From assembly GCF_004341205.1 (NCBI RefSeq), contig NZ_SLUL01000001.1:124001-188000 (forward strand): a DNA stretch of 64,000 bases, read 5' to 3'. The position numbers and the translations under genes are program-made. Origin of the DNA: Thermolongibacillus altinsuensis (lineage in GTDB: Bacteria > Bacillota > Bacilli > Bacillales > Anoxybacillaceae). Shown one piece after another: positions 49,352-58,884 of this stretch (positions are counted from its first letter, which is position 1; each line of letters starts with the position of its first letter). The notes below the pieces were generated by a model that was not told the DNA's origin, did no database searches, and saw nothing but the letters and a program-made list of their open reading frames with translations.

Positions 49352-49924
49352 ATGGCCTATATTCGCGCTCTGCTTATGCAACGAACATTTTTAATATGGC
49401 TGTTGATCATCAACATCGTCGGAACGATTTACGGTTATATTTGGTACGGCCCGCAGCTTTCGGAAACGCCGCCGAAGTTTTTACTTTTTGTTCCCGACAG
49501 TCCGACGGCGAGCTTATTTTTCGTATTGGTTTTGCTGGCGTTTTTGCTTCGGACAAACTGGCCTCTTTTTGAAGCGTTAGCGATGGTGACGCTGTTTAAG
49601 TATGGCATTTGGGCGGTCGTGATGAACCTTCTAGTTTTATTTGTGACAGGAACGCTCGGTTGGGCGGGATGGATGCTCGTCGCTTCGCACGGGGCAATGG
49701 CAGTGCAAGGATTGCTTTATGCTCCGCATTATCGCATTCGGCCTGTTCATCTTGCGATTGCAGCCATTTGGACATTACATAACGATGTCATTGACTATGT
49801 ATTTGGCATGATGCCGCAGTATCGCATGTTGAATGAATACATACCCCAAATCGGCTATTTCACGTTTTGGCTAAGCATTGCTTCGATTGCGGTGACGTAT
49901 CTTTTTGCTGTTCGTCATCGCTAA
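49352..49924 (+). CDS. ypjA: YpjA family membrane protein (DUF1405)
   Basis: This 190-residue protein has five to six hydrophobic segments (e.g. TFLIWLLIINIVGTIYGYIWYG) and fits the DUF1405/YpjA family found after qcrC. ATG 49352 is chosen over an in-frame GTG at 49340 because AAGGTGG overlaps the latter and is correctly spaced for the former. Function unknown; gene order before ypjB is as in B. subtilis. Confidence 0.87.
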   Translation: MAYIRALLMQRTFLIWLLIINIVGTIYGYIWYGPQLSETPPKFLLFVPDSPTASLFFVLVLLAFLLRTNWPLFEALAMVTLFKYGIWAVVMNLLVLFVTGTLGWAGWMLVASHGAMAVQGLLYAPHYRIRPVHLAIAAIWTLHNDVIDYVFGMMPQYRMLNEYIPQIGYFTFWLSIASIAVTYLFAVRHR

Positions 49925-49986
49925 ACAGGTCTATGTTCTTCCTTGCCGTCATACATTGAGTAGTGAGAGGGTAAGGAGGGACAAGG

Positions 49987-50766
49987 ATGCGAATTCGAAT
50001 GCTCATATGGATGCTCGTTTGCCTATTTCCGTATACAGCGTATGCCAGTGGCGGACAAGAGTGGGACAAACTGGATCGTATTTCTGACGAAGCGTTGCAA
50101 ATGACAAAAAATCAACGGTTTGAAGAGGCGAAGCAGTTGCTTGAATATTTCGAGCAACAATTTTTGCAGTTCAATGCGCGTGAAGGAATACAATCAATGG
50201 ATGCGCTTCATGCGCTGACCGTGACGCATGAAGGAGCGGTAAAAACGGTGACCGCTTCGACCCTGCCGATTGAAGAGCGCGTGAATCAAGTAGCCCAATT
50301 TCGTCTCGTCGTCGATGCGGTCCAAGCGAAACACCAGCCTCTTTGGAAAGAAATGAAAGAAACGATCATGTCTGCTTTTGCGGGCATGAAAGAAGCGATG
50401 GAACATGAAGATGAAGGGGCGTTTCAACAAGCGTTTCAACAGTTTTTGCAGCGCTACAAACTGATCGAACCGAGCGCGAAAATTAATGTCGAACCCGAGC
50501 GGTTTCAGCGCGTTGCTGCGCACATTTCTTTGCTTGAGGCTCCCGCTTTTTACCAGTTAGACGCGAATCAACAAGCAAAAGAGCTTCAACAAATGGAAGA
50601 AGATTTAGAGGCGCTCTTTGCCGACGGAAAAAAAGAAGCCGCCGTGCCATCGCTTTGGTGGGTGATGACATCGATCGGCGGGATGATTGTATTGACGCTC
50701 ACATATGTTGGCTGGCGCAAATATCGCGGTGAAAAAGAAAAGCGAATCGTTCAAGGAGAGGAGTAA
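49987..50766 (+). CDS. ypjB: Sporulation protein YpjB
   Basis: This 259-residue protein has a signal peptide (MRIRMLIWMLVCLFPYTAYA), a helical extracytoplasmic domain and one C-terminal membrane segment (about residues 221-243, LWWVMTSIGGMIVLTLTYVGW). ypjB has been linked to sporulation in B. subtilis; its mechanism is unknown. The last 184 bases before the final two codons recur exactly at 57334-57517, so this copy marks the left edge of an accessory insertion. The two copies end in different final codons (GEE here, GED there). Confidence 0.9.
   Translation: MRIRMLIWMLVCLFPYTAYASGGQEWDKLDRISDEALQMTKNQRFEEAKQLLEYFEQQFLQFNAREGIQSMDALHALTVTHEGAVKTVTASTLPIEERVNQVAQFRLVVDAVQAKHQPLWKEMKETIMSAFAGMKEAMEHEDEGAFQQAFQQFLQRYKLIEPSAKINVEPERFQRVAAHISLLEAPAFYQLDANQQAKELQQMEEDLEALFADGKKEAAVPSLWWVMTSIGGMIVLTLTYVGWRKYRGEKEKRIVQGEE
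50576..50759 (+). repeat. 184-bp direct repeat, left copy (ypjB 3' end)
   Basis: By direct comparison every base matches 57334-57517 (offset 6758). The repeat ends seven bases before the ypjB stop codon. Confidence 0.95.
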
Positions 50767-50799
50767 GAGGGTGTCCCAGAAGGGTTGGGACACTCTTTT
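50767..50799 (+). terminator. Terminator after ypjB
   Basis: GTGTCCCA (50771-50778) pairs with TGGGACAC (50786-50793), flanked by GAG/CTC and followed by TCTTTTT. It lies outside the repeat, on the island side. Confidence 0.8.
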
Positions 50800-50984: not shown

Positions 50985-51601
50985 TTTGGTTATAACTCTT
51001 TAGGAGCTACTCAGTCCATCACTCGTGGAAACGGAACATCTACAAGTAAAACGTTTGACGAAGCGAATTGTTTAGAAACCTTCACTAACAAACTGGCGAA
51101 TGGGACACAATTAAACTCATATACCTATCAATACGATCGGAATAGCAATATAGAAAGTGTTGTTAACAATCATGGCACCATTTTTTATCAATATGATAAG
51201 CTAAATTAATTAGTTCGTGAAACATTGTTAGATGGTACAGTGATTACTTATGAATACGATTTGGTTGGGAACCGAAAGAAAAAATCGTCACGAAGAATGG
51301 AAACAGTATAACAACCTCGTATTCATACAATGCGAAGAATCAATTAACAGAAGTAAACAGGTAAGCGTACCAGTATGATCATAACGGAAATTTAACGAAT
51401 GATGGCGAGCGAACGTATATTTACGATGCGTTTGACCAATTAATCAAAGTTCGAGATGCATCTGGACAATGGATGGCCGAATTTGCATATGATGAAAATG
51501 GAAAACGCAAAAGCATGACCACGGCTGATGGAACAGTGTACTTCCATTATCATTAGGATAAAGTGATTTACGAAACAGATGAAAATGACTATAAAATCTG
51601 A
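50985..51601 (+). pseudogene. Decayed RHS/YD-repeat protein fragment
   Basis: Translation gives characteristic YD repeats: YQYDRNSNIESV, YEYDLVGNR, YQYDHNGNL and FAYDENGKRK, as in RHS/WapA-type polymorphic toxins. The frame has stops at 51207-51209, about 51361 and about 51555, and a shift near an A run at about 51278-51284. It begins and ends mid-protein, so neither a secretion signal nor a toxin domain remains. No ribosome site or start is seen in 50800-50984. The original gene was probably a contact-dependent toxin; this remnant cannot function. Confidence 0.85.
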
Positions 51602-51855: not shown

Positions 51856-51884
51856 TTGACAAATTTTTAACAATTACATAATAT
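51856..51884 (+). promoter_or_regulatory. Strong sigma-A promoter of the surface-protein locus
   Basis: Consensus TTGACA (51856-51861), 17-base spacer, TAATAT (51879-51884), about 94 bases before the first surface-protein gene. Confidence 0.75.
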
Positions 51885-51977: not shown

Positions 51978-53858
51978 ATGCGAAAGGGCCTGACGTATAT
52001 ATTATCCACTTGCCTTATTTTAGGGGTGCCTACCATAACTCAAGCCCAGGAATTGGGTGAATCTAAAGAATCTGTTGAGCCTTTAATACAGAACGAGACG
52101 ATTACGTATCCTCTAAATAGTCTGGATTCTGAAAAAGTAAATACTCAAGAAAGCTATAATCTGAATCTAGCATCTGCAGATGCGCCATTCACATCCACTA
52201 AAGGACAAGTCGCCGAATCTAAAGCGAATGTTACAGGCGAGCTAGAAAAAGAAATTGCTGAAAATTCCGGCGAAAACAAGGGTGAACTTTCTGTTAAACC
52301 AAGCAAGGAAGTGCTTCAGAAAGAGGATAAAGGTGCATTAAATACTAACGCACTCCCTGCTAAAAAGGATAATAAAAAAGCTACCCCATCTTTAAGCCTA
52401 GGCATTGGGGGATTAAACATTAATATCAATGTCTTAGGAGAAAAACGTTTGCTTGGAATTGGATTAGGCTTACCGGTTGTAGGAAATGTAAACGTAAACA
52501 TTTTAGGGCAAACGAAAGCAAGCTCTGCAGAAGAGCAATCTACTCGCAATACCTTGCTAGGAGTAGACATAACAGGTTCCAAACTAGTAGGCGATGCCCG
52601 CATAGGAGTGTTAGAAGGCGGAAAAGTTCTTCGTGATAATGAAGAAGAACGTAATGGCGGACTAGCGGTTGTAGAGTTAGACAATATATTTGGGAAAACA
52701 CACTTAGGAGTAGCTGAAGTTCTCGAACAAACATCTGGAAATATAAATAAACTTCAAAGCGGATTATTGTTGGCGGGCTTGAAGGATACTCCTTTTGGGG
52801 ATGCTAATTTTGGAGTAGCCGAATTCAATAAAGTGGAAGCCCCAGACTATAAAGAAGTACACACCGGCTTAGTCATAGCTGATGTCAATAACACTCCTTT
52901 AGGAGACGGACACCTTGGAATAGCTGAAGTGAAAAAGGTTGAAACACCTGATTATAGCGAATTTCACTCTGGGCTAATTATAGGTGATGTTACAAACACA
53001 CCTCTAGGAGATGCACATTTAGGGCTTATTGAATATAAACAAACAGAAACAGACGAATATAAATCTTCTAATGGTGGATTAGTGATTGGGGACATAAAAG
53101 ATTCACCGATAATAGATGATTCGCATATTGGTATAGGTGAATTTCAACAAGTAGAGAAAAAGGATCCTGCCCCAACCCAAGAGAAACCAAAAGAGGAACC
53201 AAAACAAGAAGAACAACCTGATACGAAGCCGGTAGAGGGCAATCCTGGAAATAAAGATGGAAATGGAAGCACTCAACCGGAGAATTCGGAGCAACCAATT
53301 AACCAAGAGCAACCAAGCAATCCAGAGCAACCAAGCAATCCAGAGCAACCAAGCAATCCAGAACAACCAAGCAATCCAGAACAACCAAGTAATCCAGCAA
53401 AACCAAGTGATTCTGTGAATCCTAGTCAAATTCCACCATCTACATCGGTTAATGATGGTAGCCAAGAACAAAAAAATGATCCTATAGCAAAGTTCATTGA
53501 AGAATTGGTGGATGCAGGAAATAAAATAATTCTCAATCAGTCAAATACAGATGATTTGAGCCAATTACAAAATGTATTGGATGAAAAACAAAAAAATAGC
53601 AATCATCCATTAGGCTCACAAGTGGTTTTAATATTTACTTCTTCGAGCCCGACTAATGGCGGATCATCAACAAATGGTTCATCGGGTTCTGCAGGTTCAA
53701 ACGGAGGATCTGGAATAGTAGCTTATCTAGACTATGCTTATACCAATGACATAGATTTAAATAACCAAATGATCCGTATTCTAGATGAGTTATCAGATCA
53801 ATGGGTTAAAGGTCCGCCTATAGAACCACCGAAATCTTCCTTCTTCTTAGTCGCATAA
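51978..53858 (+). CDS. Secreted repeat protein A with six GDxHxG modules and NPEQP stalk
   Basis: This 626-residue protein has a signal peptide ending near ITQAQ, a Ser/Glu-rich region, a Gly/Ile-rich segment (LSLGIGGLNINI), then six tandem modules of about 35 residues (DNA 52548-53165) of the pattern G-L-V-I-x-D-V-x-x-T-P-L-G-D-x-H-L-G-I-x-E-x-x-K-V-E-T. A Pro-rich NPEQPS stalk (DNA about 53285-53405) and a Gly/Ser-rich C-terminal domain follow. No LPXTG or hydrophobic tail is present. The ribosome site AAAGGAGGTGA is close to perfect; ATG 51978 is better spaced than 51975. I do not recognise the module. It lies in a 184-bp-repeat-flanked island and precedes an LPKTG paralogue and a sortase, so a surface or spore-surface role is inferred. 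Confidence 0.85.
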   Translation: MRKGLTYILSTCLILGVPTITQAQELGESKESVEPLIQNETITYPLNSLDSEKVNTQESYNLNLASADAPFTSTKGQVAESKANVTGELEKEIAENSGENKGELSVKPSKEVLQKEDKGALNTNALPAKKDNKKATPSLSLGIGGLNININVLGEKRLLGIGLGLPVVGNVNVNILGQTKASSAEEQSTRNTLLGVDITGSKLVGDARIGVLEGGKVLRDNEEERNGGLAVVELDNIFGKTHLGVAEVLEQTSGNINKLQSGLLLAGLKDTPFGDANFGVAEFNKVEAPDYKEVHTGLVIADVNNTPLGDGHLGIAEVKKVETPDYSEFHSGLIIGDVTNTPLGDAHLGLIEYKQTETDEYKSSNGGLVIGDIKDSPIIDDSHIGIGEFQQVEKKDPAPTQEKPKEEPKQEEQPDTKPVEGNPGNKDGNGSTQPENSEQPINQEQPSNPEQPSNPEQPSNPEQPSNPEQPSNPAKPSDSVNPSQIPPSTSVNDGSQEQKNDPIAKFIEELVDAGNKIILNQSNTDDLSQLQNVLDEKQKNSNHPLGSQVVLIFTSSSPTNGGSSTNGSSGSAGSNGGSGIVAYLDYAYTNDIDLNNQMIRILDELSDQWVKGPPIEPPKSSFFLVA

Positions 53859-53877
53859 TAAAAAACTAAGAAGAAGG
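53839..53877 (+). promoter_or_regulatory. 13-bp hairpin at the junction of the two surface-protein genes
   Basis: CCTTCTTCTTAGT (53839-53851) pairs perfectly with ACTAAGAAGAAGG (53865-53877). The stop codon of protein A lies in the loop, and the 3' arm runs into the purine-rich ribosome site of protein B (start 53887). No T tract follows, so translational coupling is more likely than termination. Confidence 0.65.
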
Positions 53878-53886
53878 GGAAGGAAA

Positions 53887-55290
53887 ATGAATAAAAAAGT
53901 TGTTGTAAAATCGTTGAAAAATATTGTTTATGCAGGAACATTCGTTATTGGCATCTCACTTTTTGGAAATGCCGTTAGTGCAGAGGAAATAAATAATCAA
54001 GATGTACAAGCTTTATCTAATGGTGTAACTCAGTCAGTGGTATCTAATACGCAAACTCTAACCAATGCTGTAGCTCAGCCAGTGGGATCTAAAGACATTA
54101 CAAATACTGCGGTTCAATCAAATGAAAATAGCCAGGTAAATGCAACAAACACAACTAGCGAAAATAACCAAGAGAAAGCAACAAGCACAGCTAGCGATGA
54201 ACAGTCTATCATTCCAAAAAATCCACCTGTAAAAACAGGGGATCCTGCTGGAAAAGACGATAATATTAAAAGCGAGAAAAAAGCTTCTCTTATCAGCATT
54301 GGTTTAGGAGGAAGTCTTTTAAAGCCAATAACTGGTGATATCAATATCGATATCATCGGCGGCAAAAAAGTCGAAACAAAAGATGGCAGCACTCTTACTA
54401 CTGGCGGGGTTGTTCAAGCTGATTTAAAAGGTTCTGATTTACTCGGAGATACACATTTGGGTGTGCTTGAAGGCACAAAAATTAAAACAGATGATTACGA
54501 ATATACACATGGTGCAGTGGCTGATCTTGATGTTAAAAAATCAGTAGTTGGAGATGCGCATGTTGGTGTCATTGAACGTGAAAAGGTGGAAACTGACGAG
54601 TATACATGGCAACATAGCGGCATCGTAATTGTAGACACCAGAAACACTCCAATTCTTGGAGATGTGCATACTGGTATTGGAGAGACTGAAAAGTTTGAAA
54701 CTAAACAGCCTTCTGCTCCAAATCAACCAAAACAACCAGGCAACCCAGAACAACCTTGCAACTGCAATCCAGAACAGCCTGGCAATCCGGAACAACCTGG
54801 CAATCCGGAGCAGCCTGGCAATCCGGAACAACCTGGCAATCCGGAACAGCCTGGCAATCCAGAACAACCAAGTAATCCAGAACAACCAAGTAATCCAGAA
54901 CAACCAAGTAATCCAGAACAACCAAGCAATCCAGGACAACCAAGCAATCCAGGACAACCAAGCAATCCAGAACAACCAAGCAATCCAGAACAACCAAGCA
55001 ATCCGGAACAGCCTGGCAATCCGGAGCAACCAGGCAATCCGGAACAACCTGATAATCCAAAACAACCTTGCAACTGCAATCCAGAACAGCCTGGCAATCC
55101 GGAGCAACCAGGCAATCCGGAACAACCTGAAAAAACAAGTATGGAAACTCCTAATACACCTGATAACAATTCTGAAAAAACATTACCTAAAACAGGTTCA
55201 GCATTAGATTCTTTTATCCTTTTACTTGCTTCCATTATGATGATTTTAGTAGGATTCGTTTTAAGAAGATTTAACTCTAAGCTAGCTTAA
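53887..55290 (+). CDS. LPKTG-anchored repeat protein B with three GDxHxG modules and NPEQP stalk
   Basis: This 467-residue paralogue of protein A has a signal peptide (cleavage likely after NAVSA), a Thr/Asn/Gln-rich region, the same Gly/Ile segment (SLISIGLGGSLL), three of the 35-residue modules (DNA about 54400-54705; e.g. LLGDTHLGVLEG, VVGDAHVGVIER), a long NPEQPG/S stalk (about 54730-55130) and a cell-wall sorting signal: LPKTG at 433-437, a hydrophobic stretch and a basic end (RRFNSK). It should be covalently attached to peptidoglycan by a sortase; one is encoded next. CNC motifs occur at both ends of the stalk, which is unusual for such proteins. Function unknown; adhesion or spore/cell-surface display is inferred. 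Confidence 0.9.
   Translation: MNKKVVVKSLKNIVYAGTFVIGISLFGNAVSAEEINNQDVQALSNGVTQSVVSNTQTLTNAVAQPVGSKDITNTAVQSNENSQVNATNTTSENNQEKATSTASDEQSIIPKNPPVKTGDPAGKDDNIKSEKKASLISIGLGGSLLKPITGDINIDIIGGKKVETKDGSTLTTGGVVQADLKGSDLLGDTHLGVLEGTKIKTDDYEYTHGAVADLDVKKSVVGDAHVGVIEREKVETDEYTWQHSGIVIVDTRNTPILGDVHTGIGETEKFETKQPSAPNQPKQPGNPEQPCNCNPEQPGNPEQPGNPEQPGNPEQPGNPEQPGNPEQPSNPEQPSNPEQPSNPEQPSNPGQPSNPGQPSNPEQPSNPEQPSNPEQPGNPEQPGNPEQPDNPKQPCNCNPEQPGNPEQPGNPEQPEKTSMETPNTPDNNSEKTLPKTGSALDSFILLLASIMMILVGFVLRRFNSKLA
54730..55130 (+). repeat. 18-bp tandem repeats encoding the NPEQPG/S stalk of protein B
   Basis: About twenty units encode N-P-E-Q-P-G/S, with G-type units at the ends and S-type and NPGQPS units in the middle. 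Two near-identical blocks encoding QPCNCNPEQPGNPEQP sit at each end. A shorter tract of the same type is in protein A at about 53285-53405. Such tracts change length readily. Confidence 0.9.
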
Positions 55291-55340
55291 TAATTGAATT
55301 GTACGACTTTCTGTATACCAATTGGTAGAAATTTTTGTAT

Positions 55341-55367
55341 GGAGGGCTGGCCACCCTCCTTTTTTTT
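55341..55367 (+). terminator. Terminator between protein B and the sortase gene
   Basis: GGAGGG (55341-55346) pairs with CCCTCC (55354-55359) across a 7-base loop, then eight Ts, only 19 bases before the sortase start. Read-through would set a lower sortase level. Confidence 0.85.
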
Positions 55368-55385
55368 AAGGAAGGTGTTATAACC

Positions 55386-55991
55386 GTGAAAAAGTTAGGT
55401 AGTGTGTTCATTGTTATCGGGGTTTTTTTGTTGCTATTTATTGTGTTTACAAAGGTGAAAACATTTTATGAACAAAAGAAATTAGTAGAAGAATACACTT
55501 CGTTGTCTTTTACAGAACAACCTTCTAATGAACCAGAAAAGCCAATAAAAGAAGGACAAGTGATTGGAATTCTAAAAATCCCAAAAATTAATTTAGAAAC
55601 TCCTATTAAGGAAGGAGCACGACCTGAAGATATAAAATATGCGGTAGGACATTTACCTGCTTCAAGCTCTATTTATAATTTAGGGAAGAAGAATCAAAAT
55701 TTTGTTATCGCTGGTCATCGTTCCCACACTTATGGGAAGTTTTTTAATCGACTAGATGAATTGCAGAAAGATGATCATATCATCATTTATGTACAAAACA
55801 AAGTACTGACCTATAAGGTCTTTAATAAGAAGATTGTAAAGCCTACAGAAATTGATGTAATTTATCCAATTAAGAATAAGTCAATGGTTACGTTAGTTAC
55901 GTGTCATCCAAAATACTCAAATAAACAAAGACTGATTGTTTTTGCTGAACTGGAGACGGAACAAATAAAAGATGGACGAGATAAATTTTAA
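55386..55991 (+). CDS. Class D-type sortase
   Basis: This 201-residue protein has an N-terminal membrane anchor (about residues 5-24) and a sortase domain with all three catalytic residues: His111 in AGHRSH, Cys173 in TLVTCHP and Arg182 in KQRLIV. The TLVTC signature and small size fit class D (B. cereus/B. anthracis SrtC-like) sortases; the exact class is not certain. It should cleave LPKTG of protein B and attach it to the wall. GTG 55386 follows AAGGAAGGTG; the frame upstream runs through the terminator. Confidence 0.9.
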   Translation: MKKLGSVFIVIGVFLLLFIVFTKVKTFYEQKKLVEEYTSLSFTEQPSNEPEKPIKEGQVIGILKIPKINLETPIKEGARPEDIKYAVGHLPASSSIYNLGKKNQNFVIAGHRSHTYGKFFNRLDELQKDDHIIIYVQNKVLTYKVFNKKIVKPTEIDVIYPIKNKSMVTLVTCHPKYSNKQRLIVFAELETEQIKDGRDKF

Positions 55992-56137: not shown

Positions 56138-56204
56138 ACAGACGCTCCTTTTTACGAAATAAGAAGGGAAACCACCTTAACTTAGCGAAAGTAGAGGAGT
56201 TGCA

Positions 56205-56847
56205 ATGACTGCGATTCGAGTCAAGCCGGAAGAGCTGGAAACAGTAGCAAAGCATGTTCCCAATGCAGAGGATGTCTGTCAAAGTGCGCGGATCTCACTT
56301 TTCTAGGGACTCTCCTCTCTAGTGATGGAGATTCTCGGAATCGGCTCTGCCGCTATCCATGAGCTCAAAGACGAACTTCTTCATTGGCTCCACCGCAATG
56401 AAGAAAAGATGAATGAAGCGGAAGAACTGTTGTATCGAACAGCTGCGGCAATGTGCTAGGCAGACTAAATACTTGCCGACAACATGACAAAATTCTTTCT
56501 GAAGCTCCTTGGTTGGTATGACTAGCAGCGATGGTTTGGAGAATATGATCCAGTGACTGAAGAACGGATTTCAGGATGGGACCGCCTGCTTGCGGGAGGA
56601 ATGTTATTGGCTTTTTTTTATTCCTCCTGTCAAAGGGGTGGGAATCGCCGACAAAGCGAGGATCAAAGGAACGAAAGCGGTGGGAACAGCAGCGGATGTT
56701 TCCAAATTGGTCTCGCAAACGAAACATGTTCTCCGCTACGATAAAATCATGCCAGCCCTTCAAACGGTATACAGCCAAGTGGTAAATAAAAGCGCTGATT
56801 ACCAACACGATCCGTTCGTTCAAAAAGCAATGGGACGACCTTTTTGA
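56205..56847 (+). pseudogene. Decayed WXG/LXG-type toxin with pre-toxin (PT-TG) segment
   Basis: From ATG 56205 (GAGGAG upstream) the frame reads MTAIRVKPEELETVAKHV, like the N-terminus of WXG100/LXG secreted toxins, but stops at TAG 56304. The same frame continues with helical sequence (AAIHELKDELLHWLHRNEEKM) to more stops near 56457-56526, then YDPVTEERISGWDRLLAGGML. A one-base shift at an eight-T run (56612-56619) leads to FIPPVKGVGIADKARIKG. This is the pre-toxin TG pattern (TGE..S..DRxLAGGMLLAxFIPPV) of Firmicute polymorphic toxins. The C-terminal toxin domain is missing. The gene is dead; its immunity gene may survive downstream. Confidence 0.82.
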
Positions 56848-57002
56848 CAGCGTTCGATTTGTCCAGTGGTAGCCAGCCTTAGCGGGAATTGGTCCAGCAC
56901 TCCGCGTATAGATGAGCGAAGTCATAAAGAATTAAAAGAGGCTACAATGAATATGATTGGCAAAACTAGGGATGGTTGGCAAGGGTATGGGTAAATTTAA
57001 AT

Positions 57003-57333: not shown

Positions 57334-57517
57334 CAAAAGAGCTTCAACAAATGGAAGAAGATTTAGAGGCGCTCTTTGCCGACGGAAAAAAAGAAGCCGC
57401 CGTGCCATCGCTTTGGTGGGTGATGACATCGATCGGCGGGATGATTGTATTGACGCTCACATATGTTGGCTGGCGCAAATATCGCGGTGAAAAAGAAAAG
57501 CGAATCGTTCAAGGAGA
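57334..57517 (+). repeat. 184-bp direct repeat, right copy (ypjB 3' end)
   Basis: Identical to 50576-50759. It marks the right edge of the accessory region. Confidence 0.95.
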
Positions 57518-57524
57518 AGATTGA
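57334..57524 (+). pseudogene. ypjB: 3' fragment of ypjB
   Basis: The right repeat copy keeps the ypjB reading frame for the last 62 codons and ends ...QGED then TGA 57522-57524, but has no start codon or ribosome site. It lies beside ypjC as the true ypjB 3' end does in related genomes, so this fragment, and not the intact gene's tail, may be the original chromosomal end. Confidence 0.85.
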
Positions 57525-57554
57525 GGGTACTTCACATCCGAAGTACCCTTTATT
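57525..57554. terminator. Hairpin between the ypjB fragment and ypjC
   Basis: GGGTACTTC (57525-57533) pairs perfectly with GAAGTACCC (57540-57548), followed by TTTATT. It separates convergent genes and probably serves ypjB originally, and possibly ypjC. Confidence 0.75.
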
Positions 57555-58419
57555 CACTAATGGGCTGTTTATTTTCATCTAATGTGAAGCCTTCGCCGTG
57601 AACGTCATGCACATCGCTAATGGCGACAAATGCATGTGGATCGATTGACGTAATGATGGACTTTAAGCGTGCCAATTCGTTTTTAGCAACGACACAATAA
57701 AGCACATCGCGTTCGCGTTTCGTATACGAGCCGATTCCTTTTAAAATCGTGACGCCGCGTTCCATTTCGGTCATAATTTTCTCTGAAATGAGATCGCTTT
57801 TTTCGGAAATGATCGTCGCTCCTTTGGCTGCATACGCTCCATCTTGGAGGAAATCGATAACGCGCGCTGCGACAAAGACTGCAACGAGCGTATACATTCC
57901 TTCGCGATATGGCAAATATGTCAATAGCGAAAACAGGATGACAAACGTGTCAAAGACGAACATCGTTTTTCCCATGCTAATGCCTTTATATTTGTAAACG
58001 AGACGAGCGATGATATCGACGCCGCCCGTTGTACCGCCATAACGAAAAATAATTCCGAGGCCGACACCGATAAACACGCCGGCAAATAACGCAGCGAGCG
58101 TTAAATCGTTATTGAGCGGAATGTCAAAACCGTAGCGTTGGAAAATCCAAAGAAACAAAGATAAGCCGACCGTACCGATGATCGTATATAAAAACGTCGT
58201 CCGTCCAAGCAGTTTCCAACCAATAAAAAAGAGCGGAATGTTCAACGCTAAGTTTGAAATGGATGGATCAATGCCAAAGATAAAATATAAAAGAAGGGTG
58301 ATCCCTGTAAAGCCGCCTTCCGCTAATTTATTTTCCATGTTGAAATGAACAAGGCCGAACGCAAAAATAGAAGCTCCGAGTAAAATGAAGAGAATGTTTT
58401 TAAGACGTAATCCAAACAC
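57550..58419 (-). CDS. ypjC: YitT family membrane protein YpjC
   Basis: This 289-residue protein has about five membrane helices (DUF161/YitT, e.g. NILFILLGASIFAFGLVHF and FAGVFIGVGLGIIFRYGGTTGG) and a C-terminal soluble DUF2179 domain (GVTILKGIGSYTKRERDVLYCVV). The family's transport or sensing role is not established. GTG 58419 follows AAAGGAGGTG; the open frame beyond it runs through the promoter. It diverges from the ypjD operon, as in B. subtilis. Confidence 0.9.
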   Translation of the reverse strand: MFGLRLKNILFILLGASIFAFGLVHFNMENKLAEGGFTGITLLLYFIFGIDPSISNLALNIPLFFIGWKLLGRTTFLYTIIGTVGLSLFLWIFQRYGFDIPLNNDLTLAALFAGVFIGVGLGIIFRYGGTTGGVDIIARLVYKYKGISMGKTMFVFDTFVILFSLLTYLPYREGMYTLVAVFVAARVIDFLQDGAYAAKGATIISEKSDLISEKIMTEMERGVTILKGIGSYTKRERDVLYCVVAKNELARLKSIITSIDPHAFVAISDVHDVHGEGFTLDENKQPISE

Positions 58420-58453
58420 TCGAACTCCACCTCCTTTGAATGACTGCGTTTTA

Positions 58454-58482
58454 ATTATAGAGGAACTGCTAAATGTAAGCAA
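58454..58482 (-). promoter_or_regulatory. Sigma-A promoter of ypjC
   Basis: On the - strand TTGCTT (58477-58482), 17-base spacer, TATAAT (58454-58459), 34 bases before the start codon. Confidence 0.65.
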
Positions 58483-58498
58483 TGCGTGTGAAAAACAT

Positions 58499-58527
58499 TT
58501 GTCAAATGAGGCACTTTTAGCTAACAT
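58499..58527 (+). promoter_or_regulatory. Sigma-A promoter of the ypjD-birA operon
   Basis: TTGTCA (58499-58504), 17-base spacer, TAACAT (58522-58527), 21 bases before ypjD. Confidence 0.55.
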
Positions 58528-58548
58528 GAACATGAAGAGGTGAAAACG

Positions 58549-58884
58549 ATGGCAGAAAAAACGATGAAAGAGATGCAGCGGGAGGTCGATGAATACATCG
58601 GCCAGTTTAAAGAAGGGTATTTCAGCCCGCTGGCGATGCTTGCGCGCTTGACGGAGGAACTTGGCGAGTTGGCGCGCGAAGTGAACCATTATTACGGCGA
58701 GAAGCCGAAGAAGAAAACAGAACAAGAAAAAACGATTGAAGAAGAACTTGGAGATATGTTGTTTGTTCTTATTTGTTTTGCTAATTCGTTACATATTGAT
58801 TTGCAAGAAGCGCATGATCGCGTCATGAATAAGTTTCGCACACGCGATCGCGATCGTTGGACGAGAAAGGAGCAGGAGTCATGA
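58549..58884 (+). CDS. ypjD: MazG-type nucleotide pyrophosphohydrolase YpjD
   Basis: This 111-residue protein has the MazG fold with the metal-binding motifs [12 protein letters not shown] (about 33-44) and [15 protein letters not shown] (about 66-80). It should hydrolyse an NTP or modified nucleotide to the monophosphate, a house-cleaning role; the substrate is unknown. ATG 58549 is chosen; the GAGGTG ribosome site overlaps the in-frame GTG at 58540. Its stop overlaps the dapB start (ATGA). Confidence 0.92.

Follow-up and report, generated by a model that had tools for sequence, protein, structure and literature searches.

A candidate nascent-peptide arrest element at the junction of paired surface protein genes in Thermolongibacillus altinsuensis and other Bacilli

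Introduction

Why are two secreted proteins that share a module encoded side by side when only one of them carries a sorting signal, and is production of the second tied to that of the first? These questions are raised by an operon of Thermolongibacillus altinsuensis (assembly GCF_004341205.1, contig NZ_SLUL01000001.1) that lies within the window analysed here, a stretch of DNA of 64,000 nucleotides whose numbering is used for the features of this operon and its flanks. An initial annotation had drawn attention to the repeated modules and to the sortase gene. The C-terminal tail of the first protein and the hairpin that joins it to the second gene, both absent from that annotation, are the most informative feature of the locus and a widespread one.

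Arrest peptides are known upstream of genes for Sec and YidC components and lately also upstream of others, metal-uptake genes among them (PMC10987492, PMC12992588). When uORF products carry sequences such as HAPP, QAPP or LPPP close to their C-termini, Bacillus subtilis ribosomes are arrested in vitro (PMC10987492), and a stem-loop over the Shine-Dalgarno sequence of the next gene transmits the effect of the arrest (PMC10987492; for SecM, PMC10951299). uORFs coding for RAPP or RGPP are reported to be absent in many Gram-positive bacteria including Bacillota (PMC12992588).

Results and discussion

The gene pair and its shared module

Gene A (51978-53858, forward strand, as are all features of the operon) is an open frame for a secreted repeat protein of 626 residues that has no LPXTG signal and ends in QWVKGPPIEPPKSSFFLVA. 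Gene B (53887-55290), recognised from its open frame and an anchor profile, encodes an LPXTG surface protein of 467 residues. The N-terminus of protein A (MRKGLTYILSTCLILGVPTITQAQ) looks by eye like a signal peptide and was rejected by a crude hydrophobicity filter for export signals, which passed 63 of 68 A proteins and 62 of 68 B proteins, sortase loci included. Protein A holds six modules of about 35 residues (52548-53165) and protein B three (54403-54705), placed with a module profile and a structural model; the profile was built from those same copies and thus serves only as a check on their count. A wider profile that included relatives found six copies in A and four in B (i-Evalue <0.1), the fourth in B being weaker. 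Each protein has an NPEQP stalk, with limits set by eye (53300-53405 in A, 54730-55130 in B). B alone of the pair has a sorting signal, LPKTG (55183-55197; PF00746 27.5 bits, cut-off 20; TIGR01167 18.7 bits, cut-off 15.9), together with the hydrophobic segment and basic tail of an LPXTG wall anchor. The initial description of two secreted repeat proteins with six and three modules and a stalk in both is therefore confirmed, as is its report of LPKTG in one of them and of a catalytically complete sortase after the pair.

The module had been put forward as undescribed, and profile searches bore this out, with no known family found in Pfam, NCBIfam or the sequences of the PDB. The AlphaFold models, with a pLDDT of 81.7 for the array of B (from 7 sequences) and 79.3 for that of A (from 5), are all-beta apart from one short helix in B's. 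Foldseek returned nothing at E<=0.001 with either model (best E 0.15 for the array of B, and 0.007 with a TM-score of 0.23 for that of A). A closer comparison of its chains gave Z-scores up to 12.3 (BtuB, rmsd 4.5 over 125 residues). Outer-membrane beta-barrels made up most of the rows, alongside a sheet of apolipoprotein B (Z 10.6), and we read these model-based matches as a common beta arrangement, not as kinship. Of the beta-rich rod or solenoid proposed earlier, the beta-rich part is upheld by the predicted structures, and the solenoid, though possible, gains no support from them, the best structural matches being meanders of the beta-barrel type; display of a module array on a stalk, with a dedicated sortase, is supported.

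Profiles of the module matched four of 397 genomes of the order, own genome included, and own genome alone among 398 in a sample of the phylum; a contig scan of the species-level genome collection with protein A's array yielded no relative. Among 138 A and B proteins from the loci described below, 16 matched the module profile (E<=1), all from sortase-type loci or from three others (L117, L119, L129), and with the profile filters off a few further ones matched, with weak E-values only. We infer that protein B is a wall-bound, stalked beta protein and protein A its unanchored partner.

The sortase and transcription signals

The sortase gene (55386-55991) encodes a protein with, by eye, a single N-terminal membrane segment. 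This protein matches PF04203 (1e-32), and the His, Cys and Arg needed for catalysis are all present (H111, C173, R182). It passes only the general model TIGR01076 and stays below the NCBIfam cut-offs of the three classes tried, namely C (NF033745, 132 bits against 160), D (NF033746, 78 against 165) and E (NF033747, 133 against 160), each of which was rejected. The earlier label of a class D-like enzyme thus falls; the genome (2.9 Mb, 39 contigs) has one other sortase, a true class D enzyme (191 bits) that sits elsewhere and adjoins a processed acidic surface protein. As in known class C, D and E operons with dedicated sortases, a sortase here adjoins an LPXTG-type protein, in this case one with LPKTG; unlike in those operons, the enzyme lies below the cut-offs of the class models that it matched and the module is foreign to Pfam and NCBIfam. 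Anchoring of the gene B product to the wall by the operon's own sortase is part of the explanation that we favour and seems fairly probable.

Between gene B and the sortase gene stands a terminator-like hairpin with a T tract (55341-55367), similar by eye to ones in L041, L042, L044 and L047, which probably lowers sortase output. Upstream of gene A, the best promoter match is a candidate sigma-A-type sequence, TTGACA-N17-TAATAT (51856-51884; 10 of 12 matches), and it proves little because the region contains 15 sites of this kind, compared with 18.8 when it is shuffled. For the suggestion that the proteins are displayed on the sporulating cell or the spore we found no evidence, this sigma-A-type match being itself weak proof.

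Surroundings and recurrence of the operon

The operon is flanked by ypjB (49987-50766) and a YitT-type gene (57550-58725, minus strand). A direct repeat of 197 bp from the 3' end of ypjB, 98% identical (50576-50772 and 57334-57528), bounds about 6.5 kb with the operon and is possibly the trace of an island insertion. Decayed frames can be seen by eye on both sides, RHS-like upstream (51000-51600) and LXG/WXG-type toxin-like downstream (56156-56900). Within the family, protein B found a match in G000 and G034 alone of 41 genomes; G034 belongs to a different genus, and its operon is 93% identical at the DNA level over 4.4 kb. Longer open relatives of the LXG/WXG-type frames adjoin that copy. From these surroundings and this distribution, the operon looks mobile. 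Plasmids were searched as well: protein A returned 39 records, the 20 matches listed covering the stalk region only (query 416-531), the B-like protein of L036 returned one weak match, and neither the first 275 residues of B nor two other tails returned any.

A scan with the sortase of a genome collection holding one genome for each of 84,980 species gave 44 loci, 31 of which entered the gene-order listing. Eight of the 44 combine an A protein bearing the C-terminal tail described below with an LPXTG protein B and a sortase, and in each of the eight the genes stand in that order. They come from Bacillus sp. DNRA2, an uncultured Bacillus, a Bacillus coagulans MAG, Caldibacillus thermoamylovorans, Ureibacillus terrenus, two Planococcus and Bacillus ectoiniformans; the loci of the coagulans MAG and of C. 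thermoamylovorans are near-identical, and only the latter was used in junction counts. The B proteins diverge strongly, with 22-51% identity to that of the window. Given this recurrence and the copy in G034, the arrangement of the operon is more than chance. A Robertmurraya MAG (L045, 6700-7780) has a decayed A, and what remains there is B, the sortase and the stretch that pairs with B's binding site.

A conserved tail at the end of the A proteins

When eight A C-termini were aligned, Q, W, P, P and F were invariant, with seven residues between W and PP. The resulting candidate arrest sequence, Q-W-x7-P-P, reads QWVKGPPIEPP in the window (53799-53831, from alignment and profile), where KGPPIEPP stands without the commoner N/H-A-PP. 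A profile of the last ~50 residues matched 54 of 397 genomes of the order at E<=1e-3. We fetched 60 places, comprising 52 at this threshold beyond four sortase-type ones and eight at 1e-3 to 0.01 with long frames; among matches up to 0.01, G076 and G135 (short broken frames), G253 C16 (the same as L170), G122 and G151 were left out of the set. In all 60 loci the motif lies near the end of a long frame, as follows from the selection, and another frame comes next, its N-terminus secreted-looking by eye in 57. The A proteins range from 258 to 680 residues. Across the 60 profile-match loci we saw neither an LPXTG in B nor, within 5 kb, any sortase-like frame, a check narrowed by contig ends that cut B in L105 and L112, by less than 5 kb of sequence in L105, L112 and L146, and by partial masking of B in L137. 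One genome (G147) has both the sortase-type and the two-gene version.

A sharper profile matched 4 of 358 genomes in the phylum sample at E<=0.01, namely own genome, one of the same order, G525 and, in part, G491, the last probably by chance. In G525, from another order of the same class, the motif comes with a long hairpin whose sequence differs, and with a downstream LPXTG protein that resembles the module by eye and gave no match to the module profile.

Both the peptide and the RNA appear to be under selection at this place. Among 61 distinct cores, W and the prolines at W+8 and W+9 are present in all 61, Q in 58 and A at W+3 in 51, with N (47) or H (6) at W+2. Three or four different Pro codons are used at every Pro position of the core, so the constancy of the last two prolines points to selection on the peptide. 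Past the PP, the residues differ (SSFFL, APFFL, SLLFK, EKAL) and base pairing is nonetheless retained, which points to selection on the RNA there. The first PP (W+4/W+5) is absent in four sortase-type loci (LL in L044; PL in L047, L058 and L060, L047 having PP one position earlier), and hence the second PP alone is invariant.

Known families account for little of these proteins. None of ten A proteins had an NCBIfam match above cut-off; in Pfam nine of the same ten gave nothing at E<=0.001, and the tenth, from L131, has a repetitive stretch that barely passed as Phasin_2 (26.1 bits, cut-off 24.9). Among ten B proteins only the LPXTG anchor of L169 exceeded a cut-off (this protein has an additional sub-threshold match to suprabasin repeats), and the remaining ones tested gave nothing or stayed below threshold, with matches to low-complexity regions of adhesins and to glycosyl hydrolase 25.

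A predicted hairpin in register with the tail

Computed folding of the window's junction predicts a 15-bp hairpin (53837-53879) with its 5' arm at 53837-53851, A's stop codon in the loop and B's ribosome-binding site in the 3' arm at 53865-53879. It begins 5 nt past the last Pro codon, its 3' arm ends seven bases before B's start, and none of 200 shuffles was as good (z -4.2). We assembled 69 junctions (the 60 fetched, eight of sortase type and that of G525), whose A genes fall into 14 sequence clusters, between which blastp of the proteins with the tail removed detected no similarity (E<1e-5). A stem joining A's end to B's binding site is predicted in all 69, with a lowest score of 18.4, and an SD-like core lies within the 3' arm in 68. 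The mean score was 27.9 against 14.7 in shuffled junctions, 8 of 1360 shuffles being as good. It fell to 20.9 when the 3' segment was swapped in from another locus, and as many as 174 of 1360 swaps paired as well as the own segment because the binding sites resemble one another. A score of at least 20 was reached by 62 of 63 tail-bearing junctions compared with 9 of 76 other gene pairs; the best of these 76 is the DUF1405-ypjB junction (49870-49986), which has no tail motif and a stem over the ypjB binding site scoring 34.8, so such stems alone are not specific. Rfam gave no match at gathering scores.

Across the 69 junctions the contiguous helix begins 5.45 +/- 1.49 nt after the PP motif, in no case more than 5 nt off 5, and A's stop codon follows 4-20 codons after PP. 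In the largest A cluster (25) the spread was 1.0 nt for the helix start and 12.5 nt for the stop; with one junction for each of the 14 A clusters the spreads were 2.6 and 4.9 nt, a difference that is not significant (Levene p 0.10), and the loci, being related and selected by the tail profile, may share their junctions by common descent. A ribosome parked at PP would require such a register; with a ribosome that terminates, the hairpin would be expected to keep its distance to the stop instead.

Arrest and its alternatives

The published arrest motifs, together with stem-loops that mask a Shine-Dalgarno sequence, make arrest at this junction plausible. We propose that the end of protein A is a nascent-peptide arrest element of SecM-like layout that gates the secreted surface protein B, and we put the probability of this reading at about 0.6; the layout, the conservation of the motif at the protein level, the predicted hairpin and its register to PP were computed directly. 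In free mRNA the 15-bp hairpin would, by computed folding, hide B's ribosome-binding site. A ribosome at Q-W-x7-P-P near A's end would pause, through its nascent chain and the prolines, and with the last PP in its P and A sites its leading edge would cover the beginning of the 5' arm, whose bases there are the predicted partners of the core of B's binding site. The usual footprint of a ribosome is about 15-16 nt. Counted from the first base of the P-site codon, the 5' arm begins at about 11 nt, so its start would lie within that footprint. Only the stretch of stem over the core of the binding site would be opened by the pause, and a ribosome held at the first PP would be too far from the stem to touch it. 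The conserved 5-nt spacing suggests that B would be initiated while the ribosome waits. By analogy with SecM, export of A via its signal peptide, or EF-P, would then end the pause and let the hairpin close again, and B output would be matched to the progress of A synthesis and export.

The main rival to arrest is plain translational coupling, in which ribosomes terminating on A would melt the hairpin without any arrest and the QW..PP tail would have a task of its own, outside the cell and at the protein level. Hairpins over the binding site of the next gene are common coupling devices, and coupling, too, would need one; such stems are present in nine of the 76 other gene pairs here, and the stop codon of A falls within the loop at 52 of the 69 junctions and within the 5' arm at 16. 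The helix is nonetheless placed relative to PP and not to the stop, a contrast that loses significance when each cluster counts once, and a task outside the cell would give the motif no reason to go together with an mRNA hairpin throughout 14 A clusters; on balance we regard coupling alone as rather unlikely.

Two further readings start from the surface of the cell. The tail could be a retention or assembly signal, for instance a partner for B or the wall, with the hairpin incidental to a strong binding site beside Phe codons. It is conserved at the residue level, and A in the sortase loci, having no LPXTG, needs another way to stay on the surface; yet tail and stem are kept in 60 of 60 profile-match loci in which no LPXTG or sortase was seen, some tails without Phe after PP still pair (PPEKAL in L160), and the observed stems are seldom reached by shuffles, which makes this reading very improbable. 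In a pilus-like system, a class C sortase would polymerise B with A as co-subunit. The closest solved structure to the sortase is indeed a class C pilus sortase, and subunits are paired within a single operon; this too is improbable, however, for an enzyme short of the NCBIfam class C cut-off and without, by eye, a C-terminal membrane segment.

Returning to arrest, we give about even odds to a broader claim, that these tails form an undescribed class of arrest elements widespread in Bacilli (Q-W-x-N-A-P-P-x-x-P-P), which end large secreted structural proteins and would stall ribosomes so as to control a surface or secreted repeat protein encoded on the same transcript. Sensor and gated protein would then, in the sortase branch, have the same modules, and display on the wall would be coupled to export of the partner.

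Relation to known arrest peptides

The layout appears to have the three features used in searches for arrest peptides (PMC10987492), namely a localisation signal, which in the window is putative, a conserved C-terminus and a spacer of >30 residues. Like the SecM-secA switch of Escherichia coli, and VemP, MifM and the RQH family of PMC10987492, it has an upstream protein that is probably secreted, a conserved C-terminal motif with Trp and Pro and a hairpin, here predicted, over the Shine-Dalgarno sequence of the next gene. It differs from SecM in the motif itself, Q-W-x7-P-P, in an upstream protein of far from uORF size, in stalling that is here proposed from layout, and in the window also in the modules that A has in common with the downstream protein. 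The downstream gene encodes a surface or secreted protein, not a Sec or YidC component, and for this reason the feedback by which SecM works cannot simply be transferred to this pair. We rejected a Sec/YidC monitoring substrate, that is a small uORF of secA, secDF or yidC as outlined in PMC10987492: A is too large, and the downstream genes are for surface or secreted proteins or, in three loci, Spo0E-like.

With [N/H]-A-P-P shortly before the end of a secreted protein, most tails resemble the RAPP, RGPP, HAPP and QAPP arrest peptides (PMC10987492, PMC12992588); in the tails, unlike in those peptides, a further, invariant PP follows. Membership of the RAPP-like (RQH) group, R/Q/H-A/G-P-P, was likewise rejected, since the window has KGPP and the residue at W+2 is mostly N, H being found in just 6 of the 61 cores. 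In the literature searched, which covered few subscription journals, the Q-W-x7-P-P element was not named among the matches listed; strings of NAPP-type tails gave, among those listed, only the string wnapp in papers on unrelated topics, and no paper was found on the operon type (sortase with LPXTG surface protein in Anoxybacillus).

If the proposed arrest is real, it would extend control by ribosome stalling to the cell envelope of Bacilli, from which the RAPP/RGPP-coding uORFs are reported absent (PMC12992588). The junctions, dozens in number, differ in their hairpins but agree in one invariant PP, and would make a test set for the stop site of the ribosome and its release, and the window offers the sortase-anchored version of the junction, which the profile-match loci did not show.

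Two minor observations, both by eye, concern what follows the tail. The B proteins of L113, L130, L147, L160 and L116 contain a recurring element of the type HA-x(2)-N/Q-S/A-AV in acidic low-complexity sequence, that of L130 having a sub-threshold glycosyl hydrolase 25 match besides. In L117, L119 and L129, an A protein with modules and tail is followed by the same kind of hairpin and then by a short Spo0E-like frame.
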